The translations under genes and the position numbers were made by a program. Below the pieces are notes generated by a model that did no database searches, had not been told where the DNA came from, and was given only the letters and a program-made list of their open reading frames with translations. Below, one piece after another: positions 2,255 to 28,401 of a stretch of 40,714 nt of DNA. The stretch lies in the NCBI GenBank assembly GCA_022564515.1, contig JADFLH010000009.1, forward strand, positions 1 to 40,714, written 5' to 3'. The DNA is from Nitrososphaerota archaeon. GTDB taxonomy: Archaea > Thermoproteota > Nitrososphaeria > Nitrososphaerales > Nitrosopumilaceae. Positions within the stretch are counted from its first letter, which is position 1. Each line of letters starts with the position of its first letter.

Positions 2255-3448
2255 CTAAACTAGAATGCTAGTCAGATACATTATCAGCATTCCTACAGCA
2301 ATCCCAGATGCTACTGCTGCACTTGAAAGATTTTTGTCGCCCTCTTCTCGTATCCACCTCAATACGGTGATTATTACTTGGAATATTGCACCTGCTCCTA
2401 TTGATAGAAATACTACGGTCGCAAATGGAGAATAAACAAATCCGCCTACCCATGCACCAAAAATAGCGGGAGCACCTGCAATCATTCCCAATACTGCAAG
2501 CTTTCCTATCAATGCTTTTCCTATCATTGTTTTTTCTCGTGCCATGGGTGCTGCAATGGCAATCCCCTCAGTTGTATTGTGCAAAGCAAATCCCACAATT
2601 AGAAAAGTGCTGAACGCAATTGAGCCAATACCAACAGCTGCTCCGATTGCAAGTCCCTCTCCAAAATTATGCAGTCCAATGCCTATTGCAATCATCAATG
2701 CGACTGCCACAGGTTTTGTAATTCTAGATGATGCTGCTCTTTTTATTAATTTTTCAGCAGTATAGTATAATCCAAGGAAGGTTATTACAATAACTGTAGC
2801 TACAAGTAATACACCGTTAAAGCTCTGAGAAAGATTTTCTTCATAAACGTTAAGCGCCTCTTCAACAGAATCAATACCTAAGAACAGTAAGAGTCCTGCA
2901 GTGAGTGCCAAAAAGAAATGATATTTGTTTTTGCTAATCTTTTTGATAAACGGAAGCCATAGTAATCCGATCATAACAGGTATTATTCCAACATAGGTTC
3001 CTATTATTGCAAAAAATCCAGCAAGCTCAAGACTTGGCTCTAATGCAGGCGCTGCAGCTTCTATTTCTCTTTCAAACCTTGTTCCGTCTTCGATGGTAAG
3101 ACCAATTGTGTAGGGCTCTGCCACATTCCATTTAAAAGGAATTCGTACCACAGCTGACTCGAATCTTTCCAGAAATCTATCAGGTTCTATTGCTGCGGGC
3201 TGAATTCTATCGTTGACATCTGCCATCACAATCTCTACTGGAATCGGTCCGGTGTTTCTTACAGTTGCAAGTATCTCCGAGTCTACAAAATCAACCTTTT
3301 CAATAGTTATCTCAGGTAATGGTACACCGAAATCTAAAAGATCAGAGCCTGGACCAAAGATGTATGCTATCATAAGTATAAGAAACGCAAATGGGATTAC
3401 TCCACTTGCTACCAGTTTGGCTTTTGATGGTTTTCTGCTAAGTTCCAT
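2255..3448 (-). CDS. ZIP-family metal transporter with an extracytoplasmic domain
   Basis: A 397-aa membrane protein. Residues 14-31 are a membrane anchor, 40-130 a beta-rich soluble domain, and 140-397 the ZIP permease. The two ZIP signature helices are intact: HNFGEG at 260-265 and HNTTEG at 290-295, whose His and Glu residues form the binuclear metal site. ZIP proteins import Zn, Fe or Mn into the cytoplasm; the specificity here is not predictable. The extra N-terminal domain is not part of standard ZupT-like proteins and may sense or capture metal. The start overlaps the end of the multicopper oxidase gene by 11 bp, so the two are co-transcribed and probably share control by the palindrome at 4530-4551. 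Confidence 0.88.
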   Translation of the reverse strand: MELSRKPSKAKLVASGVIPFAFLILMIAYIFGPGSDLLDFGVPLPEITIEKVDFVDSEILATVRNTGPIPVEIVMADVNDRIQPAAIEPDRFLERFESAVVRIPFKWNVAEPYTIGLTIEDGTRFEREIEAAAPALEPSLELAGFFAIIGTYVGIIPVMIGLLWLPFIKKISKNKYHFFLALTAGLLLFLGIDSVEEALNVYEENLSQSFNGVLLVATVIVITFLGLYYTAEKLIKRAASSRITKPVAVALMIAIGIGLHNFGEGLAIGAAVGIGSIAFSTFLIVGFALHNTTEGIAIAAPMAREKTMIGKALIGKLAVLGMIAGAPAIFGAWVGGFVYSPFATVVFLSIGAGAIFQVIITVLRWIREEGDKNLSSAAVASGIAVGMLIMYLTSILV

Positions 3449-4496
3449 ATTCTATTTCTGTTTGTGATTTTTGATCTGGGTTGTCCTTAACTATGAATAT
3501 TCCAATCCATCCCTTTTCTGAAAATTCTACTTTGTGAGCATGGAATAGATATTTTCCAGGATATTTATATTCAAATTCCATAATCCCTCTCTCGGTTTGA
3601 GAGAGTGTTATCATGTCGGTGTATGTAGAAGGAACAGTATCAGTTCCCGTAGGATAATAATAATACAAATTGCCATGCAAATGAAGATTGTTTATTGGAT
3701 CAAATTCAAGCATGTTCACTACATATACTCTGATTAATTCATTGGTGTTAATTTGGATTGGATGGTGCTGATAGTAAAATGGAATTGTGTTTGCAGCATA
3801 GAAATTATTTTCAGTATCAAAGTCTGTGTCAAATCCATTAAGAACCATTATCATTTCATCTGCTATAGGTCTGCCTTCTTTTGGATCAACTATGTAAACG
3901 CCATACAGGCCACGTGCAATGTGTTCTTCAAGCGGCATGATATGGCAGTGATATGGGTGAACACCAACAGGATCAGCAAACCATTCATACGTAAATTGTC
4001 CTCCAGGTCCTACTGGTTCGAAAACTCCATCCATTTCAGCGGGATGGATTCCATGAAAGTGCATTGTGTGTTCCCTTGAACCATTATTGATGAATTTTAT
4101 ACGGACAAAGTCACCTTCAGTAACTCTTATCGTTGGGCCTGGAACCGTTCCGTTAAAGGTCCATACATTAAAGAATACCCCTGGTGAGATCTCCATTACT
4201 TTATCGTCTTCTGCAATAATTGTAAATTCTCTCAGAGTGGTACCATCAGGCAACTGTGAAACTCGTCCATAGTTGAACTCTCGCAAATATTTCATTGGAT
4301 CAAATTCCATAGTTGATGCAACGTAAAGAGGATCAATTATCTCACCTGTTGTTTTTACAATAGCTCCAGTATGGGTAACAAAGACTTTCTCCTCTAATTG
4401 TGCATCAATCCCTTCAGAAAATACAAAATAAAGTGTTGATGCTGCAATGATTACAGACATGGATATAATCATAAATCTAGTGCGTGATTTTTCCAT
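3438..4496 (-). CDS. Two-domain multicopper oxidase
   Basis: A 352-aa exported protein with an N-terminal membrane/signal segment (residues 8-26) and two cupredoxin domains. All four His-x-His pairs of a trinuclear copper centre are present: 146/148 (HFHG), 183/185 (HCH), 272/274 (HLHG) and 319/321 (HAH). The type 1 copper is in domain 1 (His143, Cys184, His192); the axial position, where NirK has Met, appears to be Leu197. Domain 2 has no Cys and so no type 1 site. Eight trinuclear histidines argue for an oxygen-reducing laccase-like enzyme, not copper nitrite reductase, although thaumarchaeal two-domain MCOs are often labelled NirK. The substrate is unknown; metal oxidation or a role in ammonia oxidation are possibilities. 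It is the first gene of an operon with the ZIP transporter, suggesting metal homeostasis. Confidence 0.88.
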   Translation of the reverse strand: MEKSRTRFMIISMSVIIAASTLYFVFSEGIDAQLEEKVFVTHTGAIVKTTGEIIDPLYVASTMEFDPMKYLREFNYGRVSQLPDGTTLREFTIIAEDDKVMEISPGVFFNVWTFNGTVPGPTIRVTEGDFVRIKFINNGSREHTMHFHGIHPAEMDGVFEPVGPGGQFTYEWFADPVGVHPYHCHIMPLEEHIARGLYGVYIVDPKEGRPIADEMIMVLNGFDTDFDTENNFYAANTIPFYYQHHPIQINTNELIRVYVVNMLEFDPINNLHLHGNLYYYYPTGTDTVPSTYTDMITLSQTERGIMEFEYKYPGKYLFHAHKVEFSEKGWIGIFIVKDNPDQKSQTEIEYGT

Positions 4497-4519: not shown

Positions 4520-4532
4520 GTGTATATATAAA
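4520..4532 (-). promoter_or_regulatory. TATA box of the MCO-ZIP operon
   Basis: On the minus strand CTTTATATATACA is a near-consensus archaeal TATA box centred about 30 bp before the ATG at 4496. It predicts an almost leaderless transcript. Its upstream edge overlaps the palindrome at 4530-4551. Confidence 0.75.
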
Positions 4533-4551
4533 GTTAGCCTAGGCTAACTTT
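4530..4551. promoter_or_regulatory. Perfect 22-bp palindrome, probable repressor operator
   Basis: The core AAGTTAGCCTAGGCTAACTT (4531-4550) is perfectly self-complementary, and one more A/T pair on each side extends it to 22 bp. It sits where TFB would contact the BRE, touching the TATA box of the MCO-ZIP operon, so a dimer bound here should block initiation. The GTTAGCCT/AGGCTAAC half-sites resemble those of metal-dependent DtxR/IdeR/MntR repressors, which fits a metal-transport operon. The identity of the regulator is inference. Confidence 0.65.
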
Positions 4552-4684
4552 TTTAGTATAATGCAAATATGTTAGTATACTACAAATTTGGAGGAGTGTG
4601 ATTAATCAAAATAATTCAATTAAATATGCATTGAATCAGTCATCTAGTCTGTAAATCGTGATCGTATACAAGATTGTAAAATTG

Positions 4685-10455: not shown

Positions 10456-13227
10456 TTGAGATTTCTGATATTACTTATCCTTGTTTCTTCATTTAGTATT
10501 CCTTTTGTTGAAGGACATCCATTTACTGACGAAACTGTTCCAAACAAATTTTCAAGTGTGCCTGCTGGAACTTCAGAAATCATAGTACACTATTCTGAAG
10601 GAGTTGAGATTGATTTTAGTGAACTCAAAGTTTTTGATAGCAATGGAGAACGAGTTGATGACAAAGATACTACATACTTTGAAGGCGATAATTCTCTTAG
10701 AGTAACTACACCACCTTTGCAGGATGGTGTTTATACTGTTACTAGTAAAGTGCTATCAAAAGTAGATGGTCATCTTGTAGATGATGCTTTTGTTTTTGGT
10801 GTTGGAGATGTTGAATTAGGAGACATTCCTACTGGAATAGAAAAAGATATTTCAGACATTGTATTTTTCCCTGAAGCTGTATCTAGATTTCCTGGGCTTG
10901 TAGGACAAACCATTGTGCTTGGTGGAGTAATTGCATCATTGCTAGTGTGGGGTACCCAAAACAAAAATCTGATCAAAACAGAATTTGTAAAATTTCAGTC
11001 TGTGTATCATGGTAAATTTATGTCATTAATTGGCATAGGATTGATCATAGTTTTTGCTTCTAACATTTTGATGCTAACTGTTCAAACTATAAGATTAGAA
11101 ACTTCAGCGTTTGAAGCGCTTCAAACATCTTTTGGTACAACGTGGATTATTCGTATGATCATTACTATAATTCTTCTTGGTCTATGGTTTGTTATGGAAC
11201 GAATGAAAAAGCTATCAATAAAAAATCAAATTCCACTTTTGGTTTTATCACTTGCACTAATTGTAACAACCACAATGATTGGGCATGGTACTGCAAGTGG
11301 ATTAGCCCCACCAGTTATACTTGATTATGTTCACAACCTTGTAGCTGCAATCTGGATAGGTGGAATAATATTTTTTTCGTTTACACTATTGCCTTCGCTT
11401 ACTTCACTAGAATCTAATATAAAAGAAAAGTTGACTCTGGCTGCGATTCCAAAGTTTTCTATAATGTTTGTAATTGCTGTAGGCGTTGTAATAATTTCAG
11501 GTCCTATTCTTATGTGGTTTTTGGAAGATAATGTAGATCTAATAGTAGAATCAACTTATGGGAAATTAATCATTGCAAAGATTGCTATAGCGGTGGGGAT
11601 GATTGTAATTGGAGGTCACCACCAGTTTCGTATTCAAAAAGAAGGTGAAAAAAATCTTCAATCAGGTTCAATTGCAATTCATAAAAAATTAAAGAGATCA
11701 CTAAAGGTTGATACTGCTTTAGGTGTTACACTATTAGGTGTTATAGCTCTTTTAACAAACGGTACACTTCCAGCTGGAGAAATCCAAGAAGTGGCGGCGC
11801 AAGAAATTGTATATGGTTTTAGTACAGTAGAGTTTTCAGAAAAGGCAAAGTTTGGTGTTGACATTAAACCATTCACAAGTGGAAAAAATTCAATAACATT
11901 ATCTGTTTCAAACATTGATGGCGTTCCACTTTCTGATCTGAGCAAACTTAAGGTCAAAGTTTCAAATCCTCAGAGAAATATTGCCCCGATTGAAATTCCG
12001 ATGACACAAATTGATGACAGCCAGTTTCAAGGCGAAGTGATTTTTGGTTTTTCTGGAAATTGGCAGCTTGAATTAGAAGCACAAAGAACTCAAAATGCAA
12101 ATGAAGGTGTGTTATTTGATTTACTTGTAAAACCACGACTTGGAGATTTAAAGATTGAAATTATTGAATATGATTTTCCCGAATTTGCAGGTCCACTTTA
12201 TCCTGTTTATGATGGAAAAGAAACAATTTGGATAAGTGATTCTACTGCGCCAAAACTATGGAAATTCTCAATTAATGAACAAAAATTTAGATCATTTGAA
12301 TTTGAAGGGCAAATTTCAGTTTCACTTACTATTGACAAAGATGGAAAGATTTGGTTTACAGACACGCCACAAGAAAAAATTGGATTTTTCGATCCCAAAT
12401 CAGAGGAATTTCAAATTATTTCACTTCCTGAACTTCAACCATTAATAGCTGCGTCTCGGCCTGTTTTCTTAGAAACAGATTCGGAAAACAACATGTGGGT
12501 TTCAGTACCCACCAAGAATGTCATCCTAAAATACAATCAAAAAACAGGCGAGTTTAAGGAATTTCGACTTCCCACCACAGATTCAGGTCCCTTCGGTTTG
12601 CTGTTTGATTCAAGTGGAAAAATGTGGTTTACACAAACACTTGCTCAACAAATTGGATATATTGATCTTCAAACAGATGAAATAAAAGAGATTTCACCAC
12701 CTGATCCTTTTACAATTTTAGAAACAATGATTTTTGATAATGATGGAAACATATGGATTTCAGAACACAGTGAAAATGGTTCAATCATAAAATTTAATCC
12801 AATTCTAGAAACTTTTGAAAGAATTCCGGCTTCTGATACAACGGCATTACCCAATGATCCCGTATTCGATAAATATCAAAACATTTGGTTTGCACAACAT
12901 ACAGTAGATAAACTTGCAGTATATGATCCTCATAATCAAAACTTGATTGAAATTCCCATCCCGACTCAAACATCTTTTGTACAATTTATGACAACAGATG
13001 ATAAAAACAATATTTGGTTTGCAGAACAACGTGGTAACAAGATTGGAATGGTAAAAATAACTGAATTACCAACTTCGGGAATTTTACAACAGCAAACACC
13101 AAAAGTAGATCTAAAATATACTGAACTTGTTTCACCACTAATATCTGCGGGAATTATTGCAACATCCCTATTTTTTGTAAAAAGTGTTAGAGATAAAAGA
13201 AGAATAAATTCAGAAATTTTTCAATGA
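10456..13227 (+). CDS. CopC-CopD copper protein fused to a beta-propeller
   Basis: A 923-aa three-part protein. Residues 1-20 are a signal peptide; cleavage after Gly20 would expose His21. Residues 21-116 are a CopC domain: N-terminal His21 with Asp104 and His106 in VDGH match the Cu(II) ligands of CopC, including a histidine brace. Residues 145-440 are a CopD-like domain with about eight membrane helices. Residues 540-880 form a Vgb/NHL-like propeller outside the cell, with repeated blade motifs (IWISDS, IWFTDT, MWVSVP, MWFTQT, IWISEH, IWFAQH, IWFAEQ), seven in all. A last membrane helix is followed by a basic tail. CopC-CopD pairs bind and import copper; the propeller may be a docking or sensing module. 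It is not proof of lyase activity. The start is TTG. Confidence 0.87.
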   Translation: MRFLILLILVSSFSIPFVEGHPFTDETVPNKFSSVPAGTSEIIVHYSEGVEIDFSELKVFDSNGERVDDKDTTYFEGDNSLRVTTPPLQDGVYTVTSKVLSKVDGHLVDDAFVFGVGDVELGDIPTGIEKDISDIVFFPEAVSRFPGLVGQTIVLGGVIASLLVWGTQNKNLIKTEFVKFQSVYHGKFMSLIGIGLIIVFASNILMLTVQTIRLETSAFEALQTSFGTTWIIRMIITIILLGLWFVMERMKKLSIKNQIPLLVLSLALIVTTTMIGHGTASGLAPPVILDYVHNLVAAIWIGGIIFFSFTLLPSLTSLESNIKEKLTLAAIPKFSIMFVIAVGVVIISGPILMWFLEDNVDLIVESTYGKLIIAKIAIAVGMIVIGGHHQFRIQKEGEKNLQSGSIAIHKKLKRSLKVDTALGVTLLGVIALLTNGTLPAGEIQEVAAQEIVYGFSTVEFSEKAKFGVDIKPFTSGKNSITLSVSNIDGVPLSDLSKLKVKVSNPQRNIAPIEIPMTQIDDSQFQGEVIFGFSGNWQLELEAQRTQNANEGVLFDLLVKPRLGDLKIEIIEYDFPEFAGPLYPVYDGKETIWISDSTAPKLWKFSINEQKFRSFEFEGQISVSLTIDKDGKIWFTDTPQEKIGFFDPKSEEFQIISLPELQPLIAASRPVFLETDSENNMWVSVPTKNVILKYNQKTGEFKEFRLPTTDSGPFGLLFDSSGKMWFTQTLAQQIGYIDLQTDEIKEISPPDPFTILETMIFDNDGNIWISEHSENGSIIKFNPILETFERIPASDTTALPNDPVFDKYQNIWFAQHTVDKLAVYDPHNQNLIEIPIPTQTSFVQFMTTDDKNNIWFAEQRGNKIGMVKITELPTSGILQQQTPKVDLKYTELVSPLISAGIIATSLFFVKSVRDKRRINSEIFQ

Positions 13228-13228
13228 A

Positions 13229-14062
13229 TTAGTGTTTCAGACTTTTTGTAATAGGTAATTTGCCTAGAGATTTTATTCCTATCGATATCCCAAAAATTGC
13301 GAGGGAAACTAAAACAATGGTGCCAGAGGGAGTGATGTCAAGAACATAAGATGCTAGGATGCCAACTACTACCGAAAAAACGGCAAACCCAATTGATAAT
13401 AGCGCCGTTTGTTTGAATCCTTTTCCATACATTATAGCTGTAATATTTGGAATAACAAAAAGTGCCGATATCAACAAAATTCCAACAAGTTGAATCGAAG
13501 TTACTACTACAACACCAGCAAGAAAAACTATCAGATAGTTAATCTTCTCCACAGGAATTCCGCTAACTTTGGCTTGCTCTTCATTGAATGTAGAATACAA
13601 TAATTGCCGGTAAAGGAGTAGAATTACAACTAAGATAATTCCTGTAAGCACAAGAATCAAAATTGTGTCATTTGTACTCACAAGAAGTATACTTCCAAAT
13701 AAGAAGCTGAAAATATCTATAGTGAATCCCCCAGAGATGCTGATCAAAACTAATCCAATTGCAATTCCAGAAGATAGTAAAACTGCGACAGAGGCATCTC
13801 CTGAGATTTTTAACCGATATCTTATTCGTGTAATTATAAGAGCACTCACTAGTGAAACTGCATAAGCAGTCCATAATGGATAAATCCCAACTAGCATTCC
13901 TACTGCTATTCCTCCAAATGAAGAATGTGCAATCGCATCACCAAATAATGAATAACGTCTTAAAACCATGAAAAGACCAACAACTGAACAAAGTATAGCA
14001 ATTGCAATGCCAGAAATAATTGCTCTTTGCATAAAACCGTATGAAAGAATTTCCAGAGTCAA
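13229..14062 (-). CDS. znuB: Metal ABC transporter permease (ZnuB-like)
   Basis: A 277-aa ABC-3 family permease with seven to eight membrane helices. The N-terminal part (MVLRRYSLFGDAIAHSSFGG) is the family signature for the coupling region, and GILLISALFVIPNI is also typical. It forms the channel of a Zn/Mn/Fe importer with the ATPase and binding protein encoded just upstream. Its start overlaps the end of the ATPase gene by 4 bp, a classic coupled arrangement. Znu and Mnt/Sit systems cannot be told apart by the permease alone, so the zinc label is provisional. The stop lies one base from the convergent CopC-CopD gene. Confidence 0.88.
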   Translation of the reverse strand: MTLEILSYGFMQRAIISGIAIAILCSVVGLFMVLRRYSLFGDAIAHSSFGGIAVGMLVGIYPLWTAYAVSLVSALIITRIRYRLKISGDASVAVLLSSGIAIGLVLISISGGFTIDIFSFLFGSILLVSTNDTILILVLTGIILVVILLLYRQLLYSTFNEEQAKVSGIPVEKINYLIVFLAGVVVVTSIQLVGILLISALFVIPNITAIMYGKGFKQTALLSIGFAVFSVVVGILASYVLDITPSGTIVLVSLAIFGISIGIKSLGKLPITKSLKH

Positions 14063-14793
14063 TGTATTTCGTGAGAATGCATGTGTTGTTGCATTGATGC
14101 TTCAGAATATTGTTTAACTAAATCCTCGTTTTCAAAGAACTCGGCAGATATTCCGTGGAAAAATAAAGTTCGGTTCAAGCAAGCTACTTTGTTTGCAAGT
14201 TTATGTACAGCATCCATGTCATGTGATGACCAAATTATTGTGATGTTTTGTTTTTCATTCAAATCACGTAAAATACTATAGAAGATTTCACTACTTTGAA
14301 TATCAACACCTGTTACTGGTTCATCTAAGATTAGGATTTTTGGGTTATGGACAAGGGCTTTTGCTATAAAAACACGTTGCTGTTGACCTATGGATAAATC
14401 ACCTATTCTTCTATTACCAAGCTCATGCATCCAAACCTGTTGTAAGACTTTATCAATTAGTTGTCGATCAGAATTGTTTGTTAATTGCATTCTAACAATT
14501 TCTTTAACAGTTGCAGGAAAATTGTTTTCAAATACAGGTTTTTGTGGCACATAACCTATTAGTTTAAGATAATTTCGCGACTTACGAATGTCCTCTCCAA
14601 AAAATCTTATTGTTCCTTTGTATTTTGTCAGTATTCCTAGCATACATGAAAATAAAGTTGATTTTCCTGCACCATTTGGCCCAATTATGCCTAGAAAATC
14701 ACCCTGATTAATTGAAAAACTTACTTTATCAAGAGCTTTAACTTCTGGATACTCTACAGTTAGATCGTTTATCTCAATAGCTTTCAAGTACAC
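14059..14793 (-). CDS. znuC: Metal ABC transporter ATPase (ZnuC-like)
   Basis: A 244-aa ABC ATPase with Walker A GPNGAGKST (residues 38-46), Q-loop region GYVPQKP, signature LSIGQQQR, Walker B ILILDEP and a switch His in SSHD. It energises the importer formed with the 13229-14062 permease. The C-terminus has a small His cluster (MQQHMHSHEIH) that could bind metal and sense cytoplasmic load. The GTG start at 14793 lies inside the end of the binding-protein gene (10-bp overlap), so the three genes form one operon read from 15719. Confidence 0.9.
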   Translation of the reverse strand: MYLKAIEINDLTVEYPEVKALDKVSFSINQGDFLGIIGPNGAGKSTLFSCMLGILTKYKGTIRFFGEDIRKSRNYLKLIGYVPQKPVFENNFPATVKEIVRMQLTNNSDRQLIDKVLQQVWMHELGNRRIGDLSIGQQQRVFIAKALVHNPKILILDEPVTGVDIQSSEIFYSILRDLNEKQNITIIWSSHDMDAVHKLANKVACLNRTLFFHGISAEFFENEDLVKQYSEASMQQHMHSHEIH

Positions 14794-15719
14794 AAAGCCT
14801 CCTTTAGATTTGACAGATTGTTTTCCATTTTCATTATATAATTAGAATTTTCATTCATGATTTCCATCGTTGATAAAACTAATACTCTTGCACCAATTTC
14901 AGTGGCAATCACTTCTGATGTTCTTGCATTTACAGCTTCCTCAGTAAAAATTACATTAATTCCTGAATTCTTTGCTAGATTAATTATTTCTTCTAATGTT
15001 TTAGATGTTGGTTCAATATTTGGATTATTTGAATTAATTATTGTGTGTTGATTTAATTCATATTGTACAGCAAAGTATGAAAATGCTTTATGAAATACAA
15101 TAAAGTCCTTTTTGCAAGTAGATAATTCGTTTTTAATTTTTTCATCTAGATGCTCTAATTTTGAGATATAAGATTTTGCATTTTCTTGATAGAATATTCT
15201 GTTGTTGGGATCAATTTGTAATAATGCGTCAGCAATGTTTGAGACTTGGATTTTTGCCATCAAGGGATTTAACCAAATATGAGGATCAGCTAATGAATAA
15301 TCATCATAATGTTTATTTTCATCTTTTTGAAAAAAGCTATCATTAATCAGCGAAATGCCTTCACTTGTATTTACAACCATAACCTTAGAATTTACAGTAT
15401 CAATGTCATCTACCCAATTTTCAAAACCAATACCATTAATTACAATTAGATTTGATTGGTGCATCTTTTGTAGATCCGTAATGGTTGGTTCCCAATCATG
15501 AGGTTCAACTCCAGGAGGTACTAATAATAAAACCTCGACTTTTTCTTTACCTACTTGTTTGGTAAATTCGTAAAGAGGGTAAAAAGAAGCAATTACAGTA
15601 ATCTGTGTAGAATCTGATGAAGCTGATATAATGGCCTGATCAGAATTCCAAACAAGCAATGATAAAATTGGAATGATGACGGTTATTGCTAAAATAGCTA
15701 CTTTGGTTTGTTCATCCAT
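14784..15719 (-). CDS. znuA: Metal-binding lipoprotein-like ABC substrate protein (ZnuA-like)
   Basis: A 311-aa cluster A-I substrate-binding protein. Residues 8-26 are a hydrophobic export/anchor segment. Metal ligands typical of the family are visible: His in EPHDWEPT, His in ADPHIWLNP, His in VFHKAFSYFA, and an acidic residue near FTEEAVNART. The loop before the second His (DENKHYDDYSLADPH) has only one extra His, unlike the His-rich loop of many ZnuA proteins. It captures divalent metal outside the membrane for the permease and ATPase downstream. Zinc is the likeliest substrate given the family; Mn cannot be excluded. It is divergent from a NikR-like regulator. Confidence 0.87.
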   Translation of the reverse strand: MDEQTKVAILAITVIIPILSLLVWNSDQAIISASSDSTQITVIASFYPLYEFTKQVGKEKVEVLLLVPPGVEPHDWEPTITDLQKMHQSNLIVINGIGFENWVDDIDTVNSKVMVVNTSEGISLINDSFFQKDENKHYDDYSLADPHIWLNPLMAKIQVSNIADALLQIDPNNRIFYQENAKSYISKLEHLDEKIKNELSTCKKDFIVFHKAFSYFAVQYELNQHTIINSNNPNIEPTSKTLEEIINLAKNSGINVIFTEEAVNARTSEVIATEIGARVLVLSTMEIMNENSNYIMKMENNLSNLKEALCT

Positions 15720-19104: not shown

Positions 19105-20490
19105 CTACTGTTCCTTGTAGTATTGTTCTACATACTTATCCTTCACTTTTATTAATTCATTTTTAGGTAAAAGAGAAACTGACTTCCAAAGTGTACCTAA
19201 AGTTTCTTCGATAGTTCTATTTTCATCAATGTCTTGAGATAAAAAATTATTCTCAAAATCATCTCCAAAGTCAAGATATTTAAGATCAATATCAGCAAGG
19301 CCAGCTTTTCCAACTATTCCTGCTAAGGCTCGTACTTCTTGTGCTCTTGAATATGCATCATAATTTTGATTAGAAATTTCTTGATGATCAGCCCTTGTTT
19401 GTCCTTCACCAATACCGTCCTTCATGATTCTGCTCAGACTCATCAAAATGTTGACTGGTGGATAAATTCCCTTTCGGAATAGATCTCTACCCAATACAAT
19501 TTGACCTTCTGTAATGTATCCAGTTAGATCTGGAATTGGATGTGTAATGTCGTCTGATGGCATTGTTAGAATGGCCATTTGTGTTACGCTGCCTTTTTTT
19601 CCTTTCAATCTACCAGCTCTTTCATAAATAGTTGATAGGTCAGTATACAAATAACCTGGATAGCCTTTCCTTCCAGGCACTTCTTCTCTGGCAGCGCTAA
19701 TTTCACGAAGAGCTTCAGCATAATTTGTCATGTCGGTAAGAATTACAAGCACATGCATTCCAACATCATATGCCAGATATTCAGCAACTGTAAGTGCAAC
19801 ACGAGGAGTGATAATTCTCTCAATTGCAGGATCGTCTGCAAGATTAAGAAATAGAACGCTTCTTTTCAAGGCTCCAGATTCTTCAAGGCTTCTTCGGAAG
19901 TATTCTGCTTCACTATATTGTACTCCAATTGCTGCAAAAACCACAGCAAATTCATCGCCGGTACCAACAACAGATGCTTGTCGTGCAATTTGTGCAGCCA
20001 AAATGTTGTGAGACATTCCAGAACCAGAAAAGATTGGAAGTTTTTGACCTCGTACCAAAGTTAACATTCCATCAATAACAGAAACCCCTGTTTGAATAAA
20101 TTCACGTGGATATTCTCTTTGTTCTGGGTTCATGGGAGCTCCATTGATATCTAGAAATTTGTCAACAATTGGATCTGGTAATCCATCTTTTGGTCTTCCT
20201 AATCCATCAAATACTCTACCAAGAACTTGCTTTGATACTGGCATTTCCATAACTTTTCCAACAAATTTAGCTTTAGTACCAGCAATTGATAATCCGGTTG
20301 TTCCTTCAAAGACTTGGATAATAGCTTTTCCGTGTCCTACTTCAAGGACTTTTCCTAACCTTTTTTCTCCTGATGTAGTTTCAATTTCAACTAATTCATC
20401 AAATGCAGCATTTTCAACATCATCAACAACTACTAGTGGTCCTTTGATCTCAGCAATCTTACTGTATTGAACTCCGCCCTTGGATGTCAT
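19105..20490 (-). CDS. atpB: A-type ATP synthase subunit B (non-catalytic)
   Basis: A 461-aa head subunit. It has the ATPase fold but no P-loop: the Walker A position reads SGSGMSHN, as usual for subunit B, so it binds nucleotide without hydrolysis. Family segments such as [20 protein letters not shown] and [20 protein letters not shown] are intact. It pairs with subunit A in the A3B3 hexamer. The start overlaps the end of atpA by 4 bp. Confidence 0.96.
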
Positions 20491-22265
20491 GTTGTTACTT
20501 TGATTCCTGCGATGCTTTTGAATTGGTTTGCCATAGTATTGCTTATTTGATCTAACTTTTCAATTTCATCATCTTTGATTTCCATTTTTGCTTTAAGTAA
20601 AGTGCTAATTACAGACATCGCACGAATATCTACCAAAGATGCGCCATCCTTAAGTGCTTGTTGACCAGTGTTGTAAAAATCAACTAGTAACTTCATTAAT
20701 TTGAATTGTTTTTTTGGACTACAATATGTGTCAACTTCATCAAAGGAGTTTTGTTGCAAGATTCCAATTTTTATCATCCTCGCAACTTCAAGGATCAATT
20801 TTTCTTCATCAGGCAATGCTTCTGGACCCAGAAGTCTTACAATTTCTTTTAGTGTGTCTTCTCTTTGTAAAATTGCGTAGGCTTGGCTTCTTATATTTAA
20901 CCAATCCTTACTAATGTTTTCAGTCCACCATTTTGCAACATCAGAAAGATAACCAGAATAACTATTCATCCAATTAATTGATGGGTAGTGTCTTGAGTAG
21001 GCAAGTTTTGCATCTAAAGCCCAAAATGTTTTGATAAATCTCATTGTATGAGTGGTTACGGGTTCTGTAAAGTCTCCTCCAGAGGGAGAAACCGCGCCAA
21101 TCAAAGTAACTGAACCATCTCTTTCTGGACTACCCAATGCCAAAACCCTACCAGCTCTTTCATAAAACTCTGCTAATCTAGAAGCAAGATAGGATGGGTA
21201 CCCTTCCTCAGCTGGCATTTCTTCTAATCTCCCACTCATCTCTCTCAGAGCTTCTGCCCAACGACTTGTAGAGTCTGCTACTAAAACAACATCTTTTCCC
21301 ATGTCTCTATAGTATTCTGCAATAGTTACGCCAGTGTAGATACTTGCTTCTCTTGCAGCAACGGGCATATTACTTGTGTTTGCTACTAGAACCGTTCTTT
21401 CCATCAATGGCTTTCCTGTTCGAGGATCTTTAAGCTTAGGAAATTCAACCAGTACTTCAGTCATTTCGTTTCCTCGTTCACCACACCCAATGTAGACAAC
21501 AACCTGAGAATCAGCCCATTTTGCAATTTGGTGTAATGTTACAGTTTTTCCTGTTCCAAAAGCCCCTGGAATAGAACCTGTTCCTCCCTTTGCTAGTGGG
21601 AAGAAGGTATCAAGTATTCTTTGTCCAGTTAACAATGGAATTGTTGGATCATGTCGTTTTTGGTATGGGCGTGGTTTTCTAACAGGCCATCTATGATACA
21701 TTTTTAGTGTTGAAGAACTGCCATCCTTTTCAACCGTAGCTATTTCTGTTTCAAGATTATATTCACCTTCACTAACAATATTTGTAATTTTTCCTCCTTT
21801 GTGATCAGGTGGCACCATAATACTGTGATCAATTAATTCAGATTCCTTTACAGTACCAATTACATCTCCATGGTGGATTTCATCACCAACTTTTACAGTT
21901 GGTATGAAATGATATTTCTTTATCATATCAACCGGACTGGTGGTAATTCCTCTACCAATAAAGGAACCAGACTTTTTAGAAAGTTCTTTTAGAGGTCTTT
22001 GAATACCATCATAAATTTGACCAATGATTCCAGGTCCCAATAAAACACTAAGCGGGTTTCCGGTTCCAATAACAGGCTCTCCTGGTTTTAATCCACTGGT
22101 TGATTCATAAACTTGAATGAATGCTTCATCCCCAGTAAGACGAATGACTTCACCAATGAGTTTGTCCTTTCCAACGGAGACGGTTTCATACATTTTTGCC
22201 TCTGACATTCCATCGGCTCTAACCGCAGGTCCACTTATCCAAGTAATTTTTCCTTGTGCTACCAT
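20487..22265 (-). CDS. atpA: A-type ATP synthase subunit A (catalytic)
   Basis: A 592-aa catalytic subunit with an N-terminal beta barrel, the non-homologous bulge region (about 115-200), the P-loop GAFGTGKT at 234-241, GERGNE downstream of it, and Walker [21 protein letters not shown]. Most A/V-type catalytic subunits have Cys in the P-loop (GAFGCGKT); here it is Thr, removing a known oxidation-sensitive residue. No intein is present. It drives ATP synthesis from the ion gradient generated by ammonia oxidation. One base separates it from atpE. Confidence 0.97.
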
Positions 22266-22266
22266 A

Positions 22267-22866
22267 TCACTTCCCTAATCCGAATTTCGTGGCAATTTCC
22301 TTCCTAATTAAAGGCTTCATACGATCAAGTCTTGCATCAATTGTGTTGTTAAAAGACATAGAACCGTCTTTTGATTTTATCTCTATGCCGCCTAAACATT
22401 CAATTGTTTCAGAGACCAATTCTGCTCCTGAAAATTTTGATAATAATGAATTTACAATGTCCTTATCTGCCGAATTTGTATAAACAATAACATCCTTAGT
22501 TCCTAAAGTTTCTGTAGCCTCTTCAAGAAGTGTGTTAATTAATTTAGAATAATTATCATCACGTTCTATTGTTTTAATTTTTTCTATTGCTTTGCTGAAA
22601 ACATTTTGAACAGAATCGTCCACAATTTTAAGTTGTTTGTTTCTGGATTCCAACTCAGAACTACCAATTATCTGTTTTTGAACCTTATCAGCCTCTTTTT
22701 TTCCTTCATTAACAATTCGATCATATTCCTGTTCAAGTTTAGATTGGGATTTTGACAAAGTTTCTTGAGTTTCATCAAGGGATGATTTTAAACTTGATAA
22801 TATTTCTGTCCCTGTTTGATTTAGAACTTTATCAATGGTTGTTTCCAATTTAGAGTTAGAAGCCAA
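22267..22866 (-). CDS. atpE: A-type ATP synthase subunit E (peripheral stalk)
   Basis: A 199-aa protein with a long charged N-terminal helix (about 1-100, rich in Glu, Lys and Ser) and a compact C-terminal domain containing [20 protein letters not shown] and DARLDRM, the conserved head-binding part of subunit E. It links the A3B3 head to the membrane stator. The start is TTG at 22866 and it is the first gene of the minus-strand operon. Subunit H, its usual stalk partner, was not found. Confidence 0.9.
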
Positions 22867-22963
22867 TAACGAGCCGATCTATAGATATTGGATTTGAATG
22901 TTTGGACAAATAAAAAGTTACAGACTTGGATCAGTTTTTTGTTTTTCAGAATAATTTTAGAAA

Positions 22964-22974
22964 GATTTTAAACA
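22964..22974 (+). promoter_or_regulatory. TATA box of atpI
   Basis: GATTTTAAACA is centred 29 bp before the TTG start of atpI at 22997, consistent with a leaderless transcript divergent from the atpE operon. Confidence 0.5.
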
Positions 22975-22996
22975 TCCAGTAAATCGTTGGTAATTA

Positions 22997-25093
22997 TTGG
23001 CTATAGCTGAACTTTTGGTAGGAAGTGTTATCCTCCCAAGAACAGAATCTCCACAAGCTGTTTCGCGTCTTGCAGAATTTGAGTGGTTCCACAAGATAGA
23101 AACAGAAAATGAGACTATTACACCAGAATTAGATGACCTTCTTCTTAGATCCCAAAAAATCTACCAAACCATTGAAGAGGTGGTAAAAGGGTTAAATGTA
23201 CCCCCAATAGTTGGCATGATGGAAATTCTCTTCAAGGGAACACAGATTAAACAAAAAAAGTATGAACTCAAAGAACTCGAATCCATTATTGAGGATGTAA
23301 AGAAGAAAACTCCATTAGTTATTGGAGATGCTACAAAGCTTTTGGAAGAAGATACTAACACAAGAAAAAGTCTTGAAGAATACACTTCTCTAAAAGAAAC
23401 TTTGCAATTGGTAAAAAAATTGAACATTGATATTGGCGATTTTGGTTTGATGAAATATTTTTTCATAAATTTTTTTGTCATTAAAACTTCTGACTATGAT
23501 GAAATTATAAGAACGTTAGAAGGGGTTGCCATTTACAAATATGAATTAGAATCAAAGGAAAATTCTGCACTTGTTATTATTTCTGATGTAAAAGATGCAG
23601 ATAAGGTAACCAGGGTGATGAGAAGTCTAAATGCTAATCCATTTTCTATTCCTCAGGGATTTCCACAGGTTCCAAGCAAAGCATATGCACTTGCTGAATC
23701 AAAAATTAAAGAATTGACTGTGAAACAAAAATCAATTACAAAACAGCTTTCTATGATGAGAAAAAAATTACGTGTAGAAATATTGACACTACAAGAAGAT
23801 GCACGTGTAGCAAAAGACATTTTTGAAACCCTACGAAAGCCAGGAGGAACAAAACATTTTGCACTGATTCAAGGATACATTCCGAAAAAAATGGAAAAGA
23901 GATTCAAGGATATAACAGGTCAGTGGACATCTACAACTGAAGAAATTAAAGATCCTAAAACTCTTGAAGAATTACCTGTACTGTTACGTAATCCACGTTG
24001 GGTAAGAACATTTGAAGTTATCACAAATAGCCAGGGGATTCCAAAACGTGGTGAACCAGATCCAACATGGATGATTGCACTTATGTGGCCAATTTTCTAT
24101 GGTATAATGTTTGCAGATTTGGGTCATGCATTATTACTGATGGGTTTTGGTCTTTTGTTCAAGGTCAAAGGACAAGGTACGCTATCTAGGTGGGGAATGT
24201 TAATTGCCATATCGGGATTTTCAGCTGCCATTGCAGGCTTGTTTACTGGTGAGATGTTTGGTTTTCATTTAGATCAAATTGCTCCCATAGCGTTTTTGAT
24301 AGAAGAAGGCGGACCCTTACATTTCATGGCTGGTTTCATTGGTTTACTCAGCGTAGCAGAACTCACCTTCGAGCAAGTAATCATGATTCTAAAGGTTTCA
24401 ATCTTTTTAGGGATTATACATCTGGTTTGGGCATTTCTTTTACGAATTAAAAGATACTATAGAGAAGGAAGGAAAGTCGCATTATACTTTGAAGCTATTC
24501 CAAACTTCATAATGTATTTTGGAATCGTCGCAGTGATGATGTCTGCTATAGGATCTGGATATGATGTAATGGGCATGTATTCCAAAATTCACACAGAACC
24601 CGTTCCTTGGATTACAATTCTTGTAGGAGATTGGGCAGTAGTTTGGCTAGTAGTTAGAATTGCAATAATTACTGTGATTGGATGTATTATAGTGATGATT
24701 GTTGGTGGCATTATACATAACAAAAAACATCCTGAAGAAGGAGGCGACATGGCAAGTATAGTTATGGAAACGTTACTTGGAAAAACAGTAGAATGTTTAT
24801 CACATACTATCAGCTATTCTCGAATTGGCATCATGTTACTTGTTCATGCTGCTCTTCTACTTACTGTAAATAACGCATACGTACAGCTAGGCGGAATCGG
24901 ATCTCTCGGGGCCTTAGCAATAATTATTGGTGGAAACCTTGGAATAATGATAATTGAAGGATTGATAGTATACATTCAATCTTTGAGGCTTCATCTATAC
25001 GAGTTCTTTACAAAATGGTATGATGGTGGTGCTACCCCATTCAAAAAACTTGTTCCAGAAATGATTTACAATAAACTTGTGTGGAAAGAATAA
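22997..25093 (+). CDS. atpI: A-type ATP synthase subunit I (membrane stator)
   Basis: A 698-aa a-type subunit. Residues 1-330 are the cytoplasmic arm that binds the peripheral stalks; the rest has seven to eight membrane helices forming the ion half-channels beside the K ring. The conserved Arg-bearing segment is visible in ECLSHTISYSRIGIMLLVHA, and LRLHLYEFFTKWYDGGATPF is the standard C-terminal signature. The start is TTG. It is transcribed divergently from E-A-B-D-K, separating stator and rotor genes across a 130-bp gap. Its stop is immediately followed by the convergent rhodanese gene. Confidence 0.95.
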   Translation: MAIAELLVGSVILPRTESPQAVSRLAEFEWFHKIETENETITPELDDLLLRSQKIYQTIEEVVKGLNVPPIVGMMEILFKGTQIKQKKYELKELESIIEDVKKKTPLVIGDATKLLEEDTNTRKSLEEYTSLKETLQLVKKLNIDIGDFGLMKYFFINFFVIKTSDYDEIIRTLEGVAIYKYELESKENSALVIISDVKDADKVTRVMRSLNANPFSIPQGFPQVPSKAYALAESKIKELTVKQKSITKQLSMMRKKLRVEILTLQEDARVAKDIFETLRKPGGTKHFALIQGYIPKKMEKRFKDITGQWTSTTEEIKDPKTLEELPVLLRNPRWVRTFEVITNSQGIPKRGEPDPTWMIALMWPIFYGIMFADLGHALLLMGFGLLFKVKGQGTLSRWGMLIAISGFSAAIAGLFTGEMFGFHLDQIAPIAFLIEEGGPLHFMAGFIGLLSVAELTFEQVIMILKVSIFLGIIHLVWAFLLRIKRYYREGRKVALYFEAIPNFIMYFGIVAVMMSAIGSGYDVMGMYSKIHTEPVPWITILVGDWAVVWLVVRIAIITVIGCIIVMIVGGIIHNKKHPEEGGDMASIVMETLLGKTVECLSHTISYSRIGIMLLVHAALLLTVNNAYVQLGGIGSLGALAIIIGGNLGIMIIEGLIVYIQSLRLHLYEFFTKWYDGGATPFKKLVPEMIYNKLVWKE

Positions 25094-25867
25094 TCACTCA
25101 ACAGGTAAATCTAATTTATTTCCCCATTCTCCCCAAGAACCCAAATAAACGCGTATATTTGTAAATCCAATTTTTTTCAATGCAAGAAACGTGTTAGCTG
25201 CTCTATATGCACCATGACAATAAGTGACAATTTCATCATATTTTGAAAATTGGTATAACTCTGAAAGCTCTTTTTCATTTTTCAGAGTGCCATCATTTGC
25301 AATATTTTCGTTCCAATCTATGTTTTTAGAGCCTGGAATGTGTCCTGCGTTTGCCGACCTCACAATTGTTCCATCATATTCTTCCTTTGTTCTTGCATCC
25401 ACAATTATGAGTTGATCAAGGTTTGCTTTGATGTATTCAAAGCCAACTATGATTTTGGAGTTTACTTTGCCCGAAAATTTTGTCGGCTTGAAAGCATTTG
25501 ATTTGGTTTCGGTTGGAAAGTTTTTGTTTTTCCATTTGTTTATTCCTCCATCTAACATGAAAACTTGTGGGTGTGAAAAATAAAGTAACATCCAAACTCC
25601 TCTAGCTGCCAATATGCCTGATACATTATCATAAAACACTACTTTTTTTTCATTAGTTACACCAACAAATGAAAAAAGTTCCTTAGTTTGTACGTTGAAA
25701 GACTCTATCCCTTTCTTTGTGGTATCGAACCAATGAAATGCAAAAAGATCAAGGTTTACCGCACCTGGAATATGATCTTCTGAATATTCTTTGAATGATC
25801 TAGTATCAATCAAAACAAGATTAGGATCATTTAGGATTCGATGTAGTGTGTTTGTACTAATTAACAC
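25094..25867 (-). CDS. Thiosulfate/3-mercaptopyruvate sulfurtransferase (two-domain rhodanese)
   Basis: A 257-aa protein with tandem rhodanese domains. The first (1-115) begins LIDTRSFKEYSEDHIPGAVN and has Asp80 at the catalytic Cys position, so it is structural. The second (about 145-257) has VDARTKEEYDG and the active-site loop YCHGAYRA with Cys217. It transfers sulfane sulfur to an acceptor such as cyanide or thiols; the physiological acceptor is unknown. Asp rather than Arg-Thr context in the loop prevents a firm choice between thiosulfate and mercaptopyruvate. The start is GTG at 25867. It is unrelated in function to the neighbouring ATP synthase. Confidence 0.9.
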   Translation of the reverse strand: MLISTNTLHRILNDPNLVLIDTRSFKEYSEDHIPGAVNLDLFAFHWFDTTKKGIESFNVQTKELFSFVGVTNEKKVVFYDNVSGILAARGVWMLLYFSHPQVFMLDGGINKWKNKNFPTETKSNAFKPTKFSGKVNSKIIVGFEYIKANLDQLIIVDARTKEEYDGTIVRSANAGHIPGSKNIDWNENIANDGTLKNEKELSELYQFSKYDEIVTYCHGAYRAANTFLALKKIGFTNIRVYLGSWGEWGNKLDLPVE

Positions 25868-25932
25868 AAATCAATTATTGAAACTGTGATGTAAATTCAT
25901 TTGTTTTATGATAGAAAATAAAGAAAGATTTT

Positions 25933-27492
25933 CTATTCGTTTACGTAGGAACGCTCTCCATGCTGCGCTAGATCAAGACCAATCTCCTCTTCTCTTGGTG
26001 TGATTCTGATTCCGCCTGGCCATACAACATCCATTATCTTCAGTATTACAATCGTTACAGCAAAGGCATAGGATAGTGTCATTACGGCACCGATAATGTT
26101 GATTGCTTGTTGTTCAAATCCTTCTGGTGTTCCAGTCCACGCACCGATACCATCACCGGTATCCCAAATGTGAGGACTGGCAAGTGTACCTGTTAGAATT
26201 GCACCTGTAAGACCACCAATTCCGTGTACTCCCCATACATCAAGTGCGTCATCCCATTTGCGTGCGTTCTTGAATGCAACTGCACCATAACAAACAGTTC
26301 CAGCTGCAATACCAATGATTATTGATGCCATGGGTCCAACCCAACCAGATGCTGGTGTAATTGCTACCAATCCTGCAACTGCGCCTGTTGCAGCGCCAAC
26401 GATGCTTGGTTTTCCGGTATGAGCCCAAGACATGAGTAACCATGTAATAGATGCAACACCTGTTGCAGTGTTTGTAACAACCCAAGCACTAACGGTTATA
26501 CCATCAACCATTACTTCACTTCCTGCGTTAAATCCGAACCATCCAAACCAAAGTATGGATGCACCAAGTACTACCATTGGTACATTGTGTGGTTCCATTG
26601 GAACCTTACCATATCCTAGTCTTCGCCCAAGTACTAATGCTGCTGCAAGTGCGGAGAATCCTGAAGTAATGTGTACCACAGTACCACCAGCAAAGTCAAG
26701 ACCATAGCTTGGTGACAAGTCTGGATCAAGGTCCAGATTTCCAATGAATCCACCACCCCATACCCAGTGGGCAACTGGATCGTAAACGAACGTTGCCCAG
26801 AGTAGGATGAAAATTATAAGAGCGCTGAACTTCATTCTGTCAATTAATCCACCAACAATTAGTGCTGGGGTGATAATTGCGAAAGTTGCCTGGAACATTG
26901 CAAACATTTGATGTGGAACGGTTCCCGGCCAGCCTTGACTACATATCTCATCTTCATGGAATACCTGCATTTGATATGCAGCAGACCAAGTATCAGTACA
27001 AGGACCTGGTTCACCAAGAGGAGCATAATGAGAGACCTGGTTAAAACCAACGTAATCTAAAGCGCCCATGTACATGTTAGTAGTATCATTATCATTGGGT
27101 CCAAATGCAAGAGTGTAACCCCATGCAACCCATTGCCATGACATTAATCCAATTATGATAAAGACCATTCCAATTACATTTACTGCATTCTTTGATCTGG
27201 CCAATCCACCATAGAAGAATGCAACTCCAGGAGTCATGAATAGCACAAGTGATGATGCGGTCAGGATCCATGCTGTGTCACCTGTATCAATTCTACATGG
27301 CATCATGTTACCTTCGCCATCATCAAACCAACATTCGTTTGGGTTTCCGGTGTAAATTCCACTGGTGCCTATGACATATCCATCCATGCCATCAGTTATC
27401 TGTTGTGCAAATGCAACTGACATTACACTAGTAGATGCAACAGCTATTACTACTAAAAGTAGAAACGAATACTTGCGATTCCTAGAATTCAA
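25933..27492 (-). CDS. amt: Ammonium transporter Amt
   Basis: A 519-aa Amt/MEP/Rh protein. Residues 8-30 are a signal peptide (SVAFAQ), followed by about 11 membrane helices. The twin pore histidines are in GGTVVHITSG (His274) and WGVHGIGG (His423). It is longer than bacterial AmtB (about 400-430 aa) because of an N-terminal extracellular segment with two cysteines (CWFDD, PCRID) and a loop at about 150-190 with two more (GPCTD, EICSQ), so a disulfide-stabilised outer surface is likely. It imports ammonium, the energy and nitrogen source of this lineage. The TTG start is supported by the TATA box at 27511-27523. No GlnK gene is adjacent. Confidence 0.96.
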   Translation of the reverse strand: MNSRNRKYSFLLLVVIAVASTSVMSVAFAQQITDGMDGYVIGTSGIYTGNPNECWFDDGEGNMMPCRIDTGDTAWILTASSLVLFMTPGVAFFYGGLARSKNAVNVIGMVFIIIGLMSWQWVAWGYTLAFGPNDNDTTNMYMGALDYVGFNQVSHYAPLGEPGPCTDTWSAAYQMQVFHEDEICSQGWPGTVPHQMFAMFQATFAIITPALIVGGLIDRMKFSALIIFILLWATFVYDPVAHWVWGGGFIGNLDLDPDLSPSYGLDFAGGTVVHITSGFSALAAALVLGRRLGYGKVPMEPHNVPMVVLGASILWFGWFGFNAGSEVMVDGITVSAWVVTNTATGVASITWLLMSWAHTGKPSIVGAATGAVAGLVAITPASGWVGPMASIIIGIAAGTVCYGAVAFKNARKWDDALDVWGVHGIGGLTGAILTGTLASPHIWDTGDGIGAWTGTPEGFEQQAINIIGAVMTLSYAFAVTIVILKIMDVVWPGGIRITPREEEIGLDLAQHGERSYVNE

Positions 27493-27510
27493 TGAGCTGC
27501 AACTAATTGA

Positions 27511-27523
27511 AAATTATATAAGG
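27511..27523 (-). promoter_or_regulatory. TATA box of amt
   Basis: On the minus strand CCTTATATAATTT is centred 24-25 bp before the TTG at 27492, a strong archaeal promoter match predicting a leaderless mRNA. Confidence 0.7.
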
Positions 27524-27669
27524 ATTAAGATGTTTTATGGTTCGAGAATGTAAATTATTATATTTCAGTAATTTACGATATTAACATAGAATATGAAAAT
27601 TATGTCATGTAGGATTGAGCCTTGGATTATTAGAAGAAGAGAGTTGTTAAAAAATGTGAGGGGAACTAT

Positions 27670-28335
27670 TTGAAATCAAAACCACCAAAGCTGGCAATTT
27701 TTGATACTTACAAAACCAAAAGTCAGAAGCCTACTGGAGAAGCTATTAGACAAAGATTCATAATTATTACACTAGCAACCCAAACAAATCCAATCGAAAA
27801 GACCAGAATATCCATTTCAAAATCGATTGCAAATGAAAGCCAAACCATTTGGAAAAATCTCTATTCAGGAATTTTTCTGGATTTGGATCAAGTTCTTATC
27901 CCATTGGGACTAGTTGAGGAGGCGGGTAGATTACCGTTAAAACGGGGTCCAAAAGCACTTCAAGAAAAAGGAATTCCGTATTACAAACTAACTAAGAGTG
28001 GATTGTTAGTGTCATTATCCCTCAAGGAGTTAAAAAATCAACAAAATATCCTAGAGCAATTTTTTTCAAATGCTAGTTCAGAAGAAAAAGAGTTTCAGGA
28101 AATTATTCAAAAACTATCAAAAATTGCTCCAAAGTTCACCCATTCACTTTTTGAGAAATACATTAGATCTTACTGCAATGGAAAATTGAAAAATTTAATG
28201 CCGATGAATTTAGAAAACTTGAAGATTGTTAATGATGAAAGCCTTCAAGTTCAAAAGGAATTTCTTAAAGCCTTTTCACATTTATCAAAACCAGATATGG
28301 AAAAAACTGTTAATTTGTTAAACAGAATCTGTTGA
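27670..28335 (+). CDS. Hypothetical DNA-binding-like protein (221 aa)
   Basis: A 221-aa basic soluble protein with no signal peptide. The first 100 residues may hold a winged helix: IEKTRISISKSIANESQTIW is helix-turn-helix-like, followed by GLVEEAGRLPLKRGPKALQE and GIPYYKLTKSGLLVSLSLKE, where the YKLTKSG strand-turn is typical of winged-helix proteins. The C-terminal 100 residues are helical. The start is TTG with a purine-rich GAGGGG 6 nt upstream, so this message has a leader, unlike most here. It may be a regulator, but the partner is unknown. Confidence 0.7.
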   Translation: MKSKPPKLAIFDTYKTKSQKPTGEAIRQRFIIITLATQTNPIEKTRISISKSIANESQTIWKNLYSGIFLDLDQVLIPLGLVEEAGRLPLKRGPKALQEKGIPYYKLTKSGLLVSLSLKELKNQQNILEQFFSNASSEEKEFQEIIQKLSKIAPKFTHSLFEKYIRSYCNGKLKNLMPMNLENLKIVNDESLQVQKEFLKAFSHLSKPDMEKTVNLLNRIC

Positions 28336-28401
28336 ATTAATACTAACAAAGCTTAGACTTTCACTAAACATTAAAATCATCACCAAGGAAAGATTGTTTG
28401 A

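Follow-up and report, generated by a model that had tools for sequence, protein, structure and literature searches.

A conserved tandem palindromic array at archaeal MCO1-ZIP promoters as the predicted operator of an MntR-type repressor

The MCO1-ZIP operon and its promoter

The window, meaning the whole stretch of 40,714 nucleotides analyzed here, contains an operon of two minus-strand genes, with the following features in the operon and its promoter.

3438-4496, minus strand: MCO1-type multicopper oxidase, 352 aa, first gene of the operon (Pfam Cu-oxidase_3 and Cu-oxidase_2)
2255-3448, minus strand: ZIP-like metal permease, 397 aa, overlapping the end of the MCO1 gene by 11 bp
4523-4532, minus strand: TATA-like element TTTATATATA, which shares 3 bp with the edge of the palindrome
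4530-4551, no strand assigned: candidate operator site 1 (TATA-proximal), a 22-bp palindrome with core TTAGCCTAGGCTAA at 4534-4547
4553-4566, minus strand: candidate operator site 2, degenerate, TTGCATTATACTAA, 19 bp upstream of site 1
4572-4585, minus strand: candidate operator site 3, degenerate, TTGTAGTATACTAA, 38 bp upstream of site 1

The assignment of the permease is a weak one, with matches below cut-off for both Pfam Zip (E 0.064) and NCBIfam ZupT (5e-9) and a weak match to a solved ZIP structure (E 0.001); its translation contains the motifs HNFGEG and HNTTEG. The ZIP gene lies directly 3' of MCO1 in all 73 named loci with enough downstream DNA, and most of the examined AOA genomes of the family carry the pair. 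Elsewhere in the window, a copper-handling gene at 10456-13227 (plus strand) encodes a CopC-CopD fusion with a C-terminal beta-propeller-like region (Vgb_lyase), and V/A-type ATP synthase subunits are encoded on both sides of an ammonium transporter gene (25933-27492) within 19105-29439.

At 4530-4551, AAAGTTAGCCTAGGCTAACTTT reads identically on the two strands, which confirms the perfect 22-bp palindrome reported in the first-pass annotation, and it is the sole perfect palindrome of at least 22 bp in the window. Dinucleotide shuffles of the window (n = 100) gave a mean of 0.01 such palindromes, with at least one present in a single shuffle. Across the genome, chance palindromes of this kind are expected at roughly 1 per 1.5 Mb, as estimated from base composition. 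Palindromy by itself is thus weak evidence at genome scale, and the significance of the element comes from its conservation.

The overlap with TTTATATATA bears out the earlier placement of the dyad at the BRE position and in contact with the TATA box of the operon; the MCO1 ATG at 4494-4496 follows at most about 35 bp downstream of this element on the minus strand. The palindrome had been described alone, and although it is real, two weaker copies were missed. Sites 2 and 3 are minus-strand copies of site 1 spaced at exact 19-bp steps, site 2 with 0 mismatches to the tandem pattern and site 3 at a spacing for which autocorrelation shows a secondary peak at -38.

Within this genome, the 16-bp core GTTAGCCTAGGCTAAC is present in 1 exact copy, and allowing as many as 3 mismatches to this 16-mer revealed no further site. 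Two additional matches to the tandem pattern, at a tolerance of 2 mismatches, were attributed to chance, since reversed controls gave 3 and 4. The regulon in this genome therefore appears to consist of one operon.

Conservation of the array at MCO1 promoters

The exact 16-mer is found in 18 of 200 family genomes, and in all 18 it lies within approximately 100 bp upstream of the MCO1 start. For a broader comparison, 121 MCO1 upstream regions were collected from the family and the 119 with at least 150 bp were used; upstream DNA was too short in G121 and G167, and G026 and G042 (contig edge) and G099 (match beginning inside the gene) were excluded from the set. The tandem test scores two units at a 19-bp step, with a threshold of at least 19 of 28. 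By this measure, orthologous promoters have kept the dyad within a tandem array, which is present in 117 of the 119 promoters compared with 0 of 595 shuffles; the two others score 18. The best 14-mer match to TTAGCCTAGGCTAA reaches at least 12 of 14 in 112 of these promoters. In all 119, a TATA-like string starts 0 to 4 bp after a unit, under a permissive pattern and with a choice among three units.

The same picture is obtained for the 80 named loci, which include Nitrosopumilus, Nitrosarchaeum, Nitrosotenuis, Cenarchaeum, one Nitrosotalea, and thaumarchaeota, with the array in 78 of the 79 that have enough upstream DNA. Beyond the family, in other families of the order, the array is found at 13 of 32 MCO1 promoters (0/160 shuffles), and the remaining 19 score below the threshold.

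Further upstream, in the interval between MCO1 and a divergent gene of about 168 aa, there is another conserved near-palindrome, TTTAGTTTAAACCTAATTTTT. It is seen at about 2050-2110 of locus L245 and in many MCO1 upstream regions (e.g., G048, G085, and G097), and it may be the promoter of the divergent gene or the site of another regulator. A separate locus, L249 (G145:C1:932732), holds a decayed MCO1-ZIP copy, recognizable by short matches only, in which the operator still looks intact.

The array at other metal transporters

When 130 genomes of at least 90% completeness were searched with the tandem pattern, 62 matched, mostly at MCO1 promoters. In five genomes without MCO1-ZIP (G113, G180, G184, G192, and G198), the array is found in the same neighborhood, where it precedes genes for a ZnuA/TroA-type SBP and an ATPase, and in other genomes without MCO1 it lies upstream of an Nramp gene. 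The array-linked Nramp passes the NCBIfam model for the Mn(2+) uptake NRAMP transporter MntH (455.9; cut-off, 430). The array is present at 38 of 42 MntH-type Nramp promoters (0/210 shuffles) and at all nine TroA-type SBP and ATPase promoters (0/45 shuffles). The four MntH promoters scoring below 19 are those of G173, G102, G107, and G181, with no array seen in G107. Single-site searches allowing 2 mismatches in genomes without MCO1 were mostly at control level, with some matches before Nramp or TroA genes. In G200, a tandem array at 2000-2032 of locus L252 (G200:C14) precedes genes for a PhnD-like SBP and an ABC ATPase, which may point to another target of the metal type.

The first-pass annotation had suggested that the dyad may mark a metal regulon in this lineage. 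This idea is supported across relatives, where similar sites stand before MntH and TroA-type transporters, but in this genome, where a second site was not found, the regulon appears to be a single operon.

The occurrence of the array is selective. It is absent from second-group Nramp promoters (0/7) and from Zn-type ZnuA promoters (0/28). The latter include the zinc-type ZnuA gene of the window itself.

14784-15719 (with adjacent ORFs, 13229-15719), minus strand: zinc-type ZnuA SBP, without an upstream tandem operator

With this gene and 30 further loci, 31 ZnuA-family promoters were tested, and the array is present in only 3, which are exactly the TroA-type three. The three TroA-type proteins are 76 to 85% identical to the G113 protein, whereas the other 27 loci encode proteins only 23 to 30% identical to it and 40 to 57% identical to the ZnuA of the window. 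The array is likewise absent from the promoters of 30 MntR genes (maximum score, 16 of 28), which speaks against MntR autoregulation through it.

The distribution of the transporters is also of interest. An MntH-type Nramp is encoded in 22 of 37 high-quality genomes without a full MCO1 compared with 0 of 82 that have MCO1. These counts were tallied by hand, and the associated Fisher value of 2e-14 exaggerates the association, since a single genus accounts for 19 of the 22 MntH genomes; the 22 span three genera in all. The mutual exclusion of MCO1 and MntH is therefore partly phylogenetic, and both genes are present in G007 (79% complete). For 6 of the 37 genomes (G009, G027, G055, G074, G195, and G041), no operator-linked alternative transporter was shown, and G041 has MCO1 fragments with the array. 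Taken as a whole, the loci offer a clear example of a promoter retained through an exchange of the transporter gene that follows it.

Candidate regulators

Two DtxR-superfamily proteins are encoded in this genome, the MntR-like P0001 and P0002. P0001 passes the NCBIfam MntR model (NF003025; 139.3 bits; cut-off, 138), and its best solved relative is B. subtilis MntR (E 1.8e-29). The six Mn ligands of B. subtilis MntR, as listed in PMC9861239, are all kept in P0001, and D8, E11, H77, E99, E102, and H103 are identical in 30 of 30 P0001 homologs at gap-free offsets. Among solved structures, P0002 is closest to SloR and ScaR, and DtxR and IdeR rank lower. In P0002, Met and Cys presumably replace Asp8 and Glu99 of MntR, as judged by eye from the alignment, with the ligand numbering of DtxR.

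Of the 200 family genomes, 193 have a match to P0001, and the weaker matches are P0002-like. As both types are widespread, co-occurrence cannot tell them apart. The MntR gene of this genome sits on a different contig from MCO1-ZIP, a point against the MntR reading. In several genomes, an MntR-like gene is found beside the array: at MCO1 in 8 of 30 loci and, in a set that overlaps with these, in 5 of 80 named loci; at MntH in 4 of 30 loci; and at the TroA operon in G123. In the five named loci it lies directly upstream of the operator, MCO1, and ZIP on the same strand. These array-adjacent proteins of other genomes are more distant paralogs of P0001, to which they are 52 to 68% identical, apart from one remnant-like match (38%). 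No P0002-type gene was found beside an operator-bearing promoter in six locus sets.

At four MntH loci (L356, L360, L363, and L371, in G173, G122, G102, and G144), the adjacent MntR is more diverged (52 to 58% identity to P0001), and the tandem scores are 17, 18, 20, and 21, so that two miss the threshold of 19. Such a combination of diverged MntR and diverged operator would fit a co-divergence of protein and site.

The half-sites had been described as DtxR/IdeR-like, which holds at the level of the superfamily. Within it, the manganese (MntR) branch is favored over the iron (DtxR/IdeR) branch because P0001 passes the MntR cut-off, MntR genes adjoin the array, and the targets include MntH.

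Proposed regulation and alternatives

When these results are placed together, the palindrome probably serves as the high-affinity unit within a tandem operator, bound by an MntR-type, metal-dependent repressor of the DtxR superfamily that silences MCO1-ZIP. As read from the sequence, the case is made by the array, its position and conservation, its recurrence upstream of three unrelated kinds of Mn/Fe-class transporter, and the adjacency of MntR genes. When Mn(II), or possibly Fe(II), is plentiful, metal-loaded MntR dimers would occupy site 1 at the edge of the BRE and TATA elements, and the weaker units 19 and 38 bp upstream would then be filled with cooperative help. A bound dimer would exclude TBP and TFB and so turn the operon off; when the metal is scarce, the repressor would leave and uptake would be turned on. 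Exclusion of TFB and TBP is to be expected because the proximal unit lies over the BRE position and reaches the TATA element, and the placement of weaker units at 19-bp steps suggests cooperative loading. We infer repression by metal-loaded MntR, and not activation, from the position of the site and the protein family; MntR binding itself, the identity of the metal, cooperativity, and metal import by ZIP are likewise predictions.

Mn(II) is the favored signal and Fe(II) a live alternative. It is conceivable, if rather unlikely, that the MntR-type protein and its operator act as proposed but with Fe(II) instead of Mn(II) as both signal and cargo. Nramp, TroA-type, and ZIP proteins can also transport Fe(II) or Zn, which counts against specificity for Mn. 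In addition, one study of AOA genomes reports an inorganic Fe-specific uptake system in only 40% of them (PMC9723733). Against an Fe(II) signal, the six Mn-site residues of MntR are kept in all 30 homologs, Asp at position 8 included, and the MntR and MntH models both pass their cut-offs.

We give little credence to the array being instead the operator of the second, iron-type DtxR/IdeR-like protein, P0002, which would make MCO1-ZIP an Fe(II)-responsive iron-uptake operon. Such a protein is indeed encoded in this genome, with SloR and ScaR, then DtxR and IdeR, as its nearest solved relatives; GTTAGCCTA is common to the operator and the DtxR consensus TTAGGTTAGSCTAACCTAA; and Fe(II) uptake through general ZIP transporters has been proposed for N. 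maritimus in PMC9723733. However, MntR-type genes adjoin the array at all three transporter classes and P0002-type genes at none, and the alternative targets include a transporter that passes the MntH (Mn) model.

A copper regulator would agree with the literature, where MCO1-ZIP is supposed to be a copper-uptake operon, and an MCO is a copper enzyme. In PMC7785015, MCO1 of N. viennensis and the adjacent permease are mildly up under Cu limitation (log2FC 0.81 and 1.33), but the responses of homologous MCO1 genes in N. maritimus are called "conflicting", and the Cu-limitation motif published there, TTCSGSMTTTGWACYANT, is unlike the array when compared by eye. With the array also upstream of MntH and TroA-type transporters and MntR-like genes flanking it, a copper site is very improbable. 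It is scarcely credible that the repeat belongs to the general core promoter (BRE/TATA) of these archaea and is no specific operator, for although the array abuts a TATA-like string in every examined MCO1 promoter, it is missing from the MntR (0/30), Zn-type ZnuA (0/28), and second-group Nramp (0/7) promoters, and the exact core is present only once in this genome.

The reading as an MntR operator suggests that MCO1-ZIP serves in the uptake of manganese (or iron), although the operon is usually linked to copper. That a Mn-uptake operon should include a multicopper oxidase is chemically odd, and we counted this against the MntR reading. It may also be, although this is less likely than not, that the secreted multicopper oxidase and ZIP form a system for oxidase-coupled acquisition of Mn (Mn/Fe), a functional analogue of Fet3-Ftr1. 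In evolution this system would be interchangeable with MntH and the TroA-type ABC transporter under a single retained MntR and tandem operator, the 19-bp phased TATA operator being unlike known MntR sites. An MntR-type switch common to MCO1-ZIP, MntH, and TroA would amount to a testable reassignment of the operon from copper to Mn or Fe supply, and it suggests that Mn (or Fe) status could be read from ocean AOA transcripts.

Comparison with known systems

The gene pair of MCO1 and ZIP in AOA is already known, with nomenclature from Kerou et al. 2016 (via PMC7785015, PMC7819960, and PMC5817080). A table in PMC5817080 includes one AOA with neither gene, and the pair is called copper sequestration in PMC7819960. 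In contrast to this literature, which places MCO1-ZIP in copper uptake or homeostasis, our analysis adds an operator and a predicted link to MntR and Mn. We found no published description of this operator, of a regulator of the pair, or of a Mn role for MCO1-ZIP in a search of titles and abstracts that covered few subscription papers; in PMC10367259, MntR appears in the reference list only. The Cu-limitation motif of Nitrososphaera viennensis, TTCSGSMTTTGWACYANT, is similar in being a conserved promoter motif before AOA metal genes, but it is another sequence and is reported before CopC/D and MCO4 genes in PMC7785015.

DtxR/IdeR operators of the type TTAGGTTAGSCTAACCTAA are recognized by the same superfamily, and the 9-bp core GTTAGCCTA is shared with the DtxR 19-mer; one predicted C. 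diphtheriae DtxR site contains TTAGCCTAGGCTAA (DtxR sites from PMC524172 and PMC1382209). The dyad of the window differs from the 19-bp operator in its center and in the missing outer TTAGG/CCTAA arms, and the regulator genes that adjoin the archaeal array are of the MntR type.

A further parallel is with bacterial MntR. Its regulons include mntH and mntABCD in B. subtilis and mntH in E. coli, and the archaeal system resembles them in having an MntR-like repressor with identical Mn ligands and MntH and ABC metal transporters as targets. The operators are also alike in their palindromy, their GCC/GGC-type arms with flanking T/A, and their overlap with the core promoter. The B. subtilis MntR (mntH) site TTTGCCTTAAGGAAA has two more central bases than the archaeal dyad (PMC9861239), and the unequal arrangement of TTAGCC-TA-GGCTAA and bacterial TTTGCC-TTAA-GGAAA marks the former as a variant operator. 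Different, too, are the tandem array with its 19-bp period at the BRE/TATA elements and the main target, an MCO-ZIP operon. On this comparison, the array is a variant of known regulation with an unexpected target, MCO1-ZIP, and is most likely the operator of MntR.
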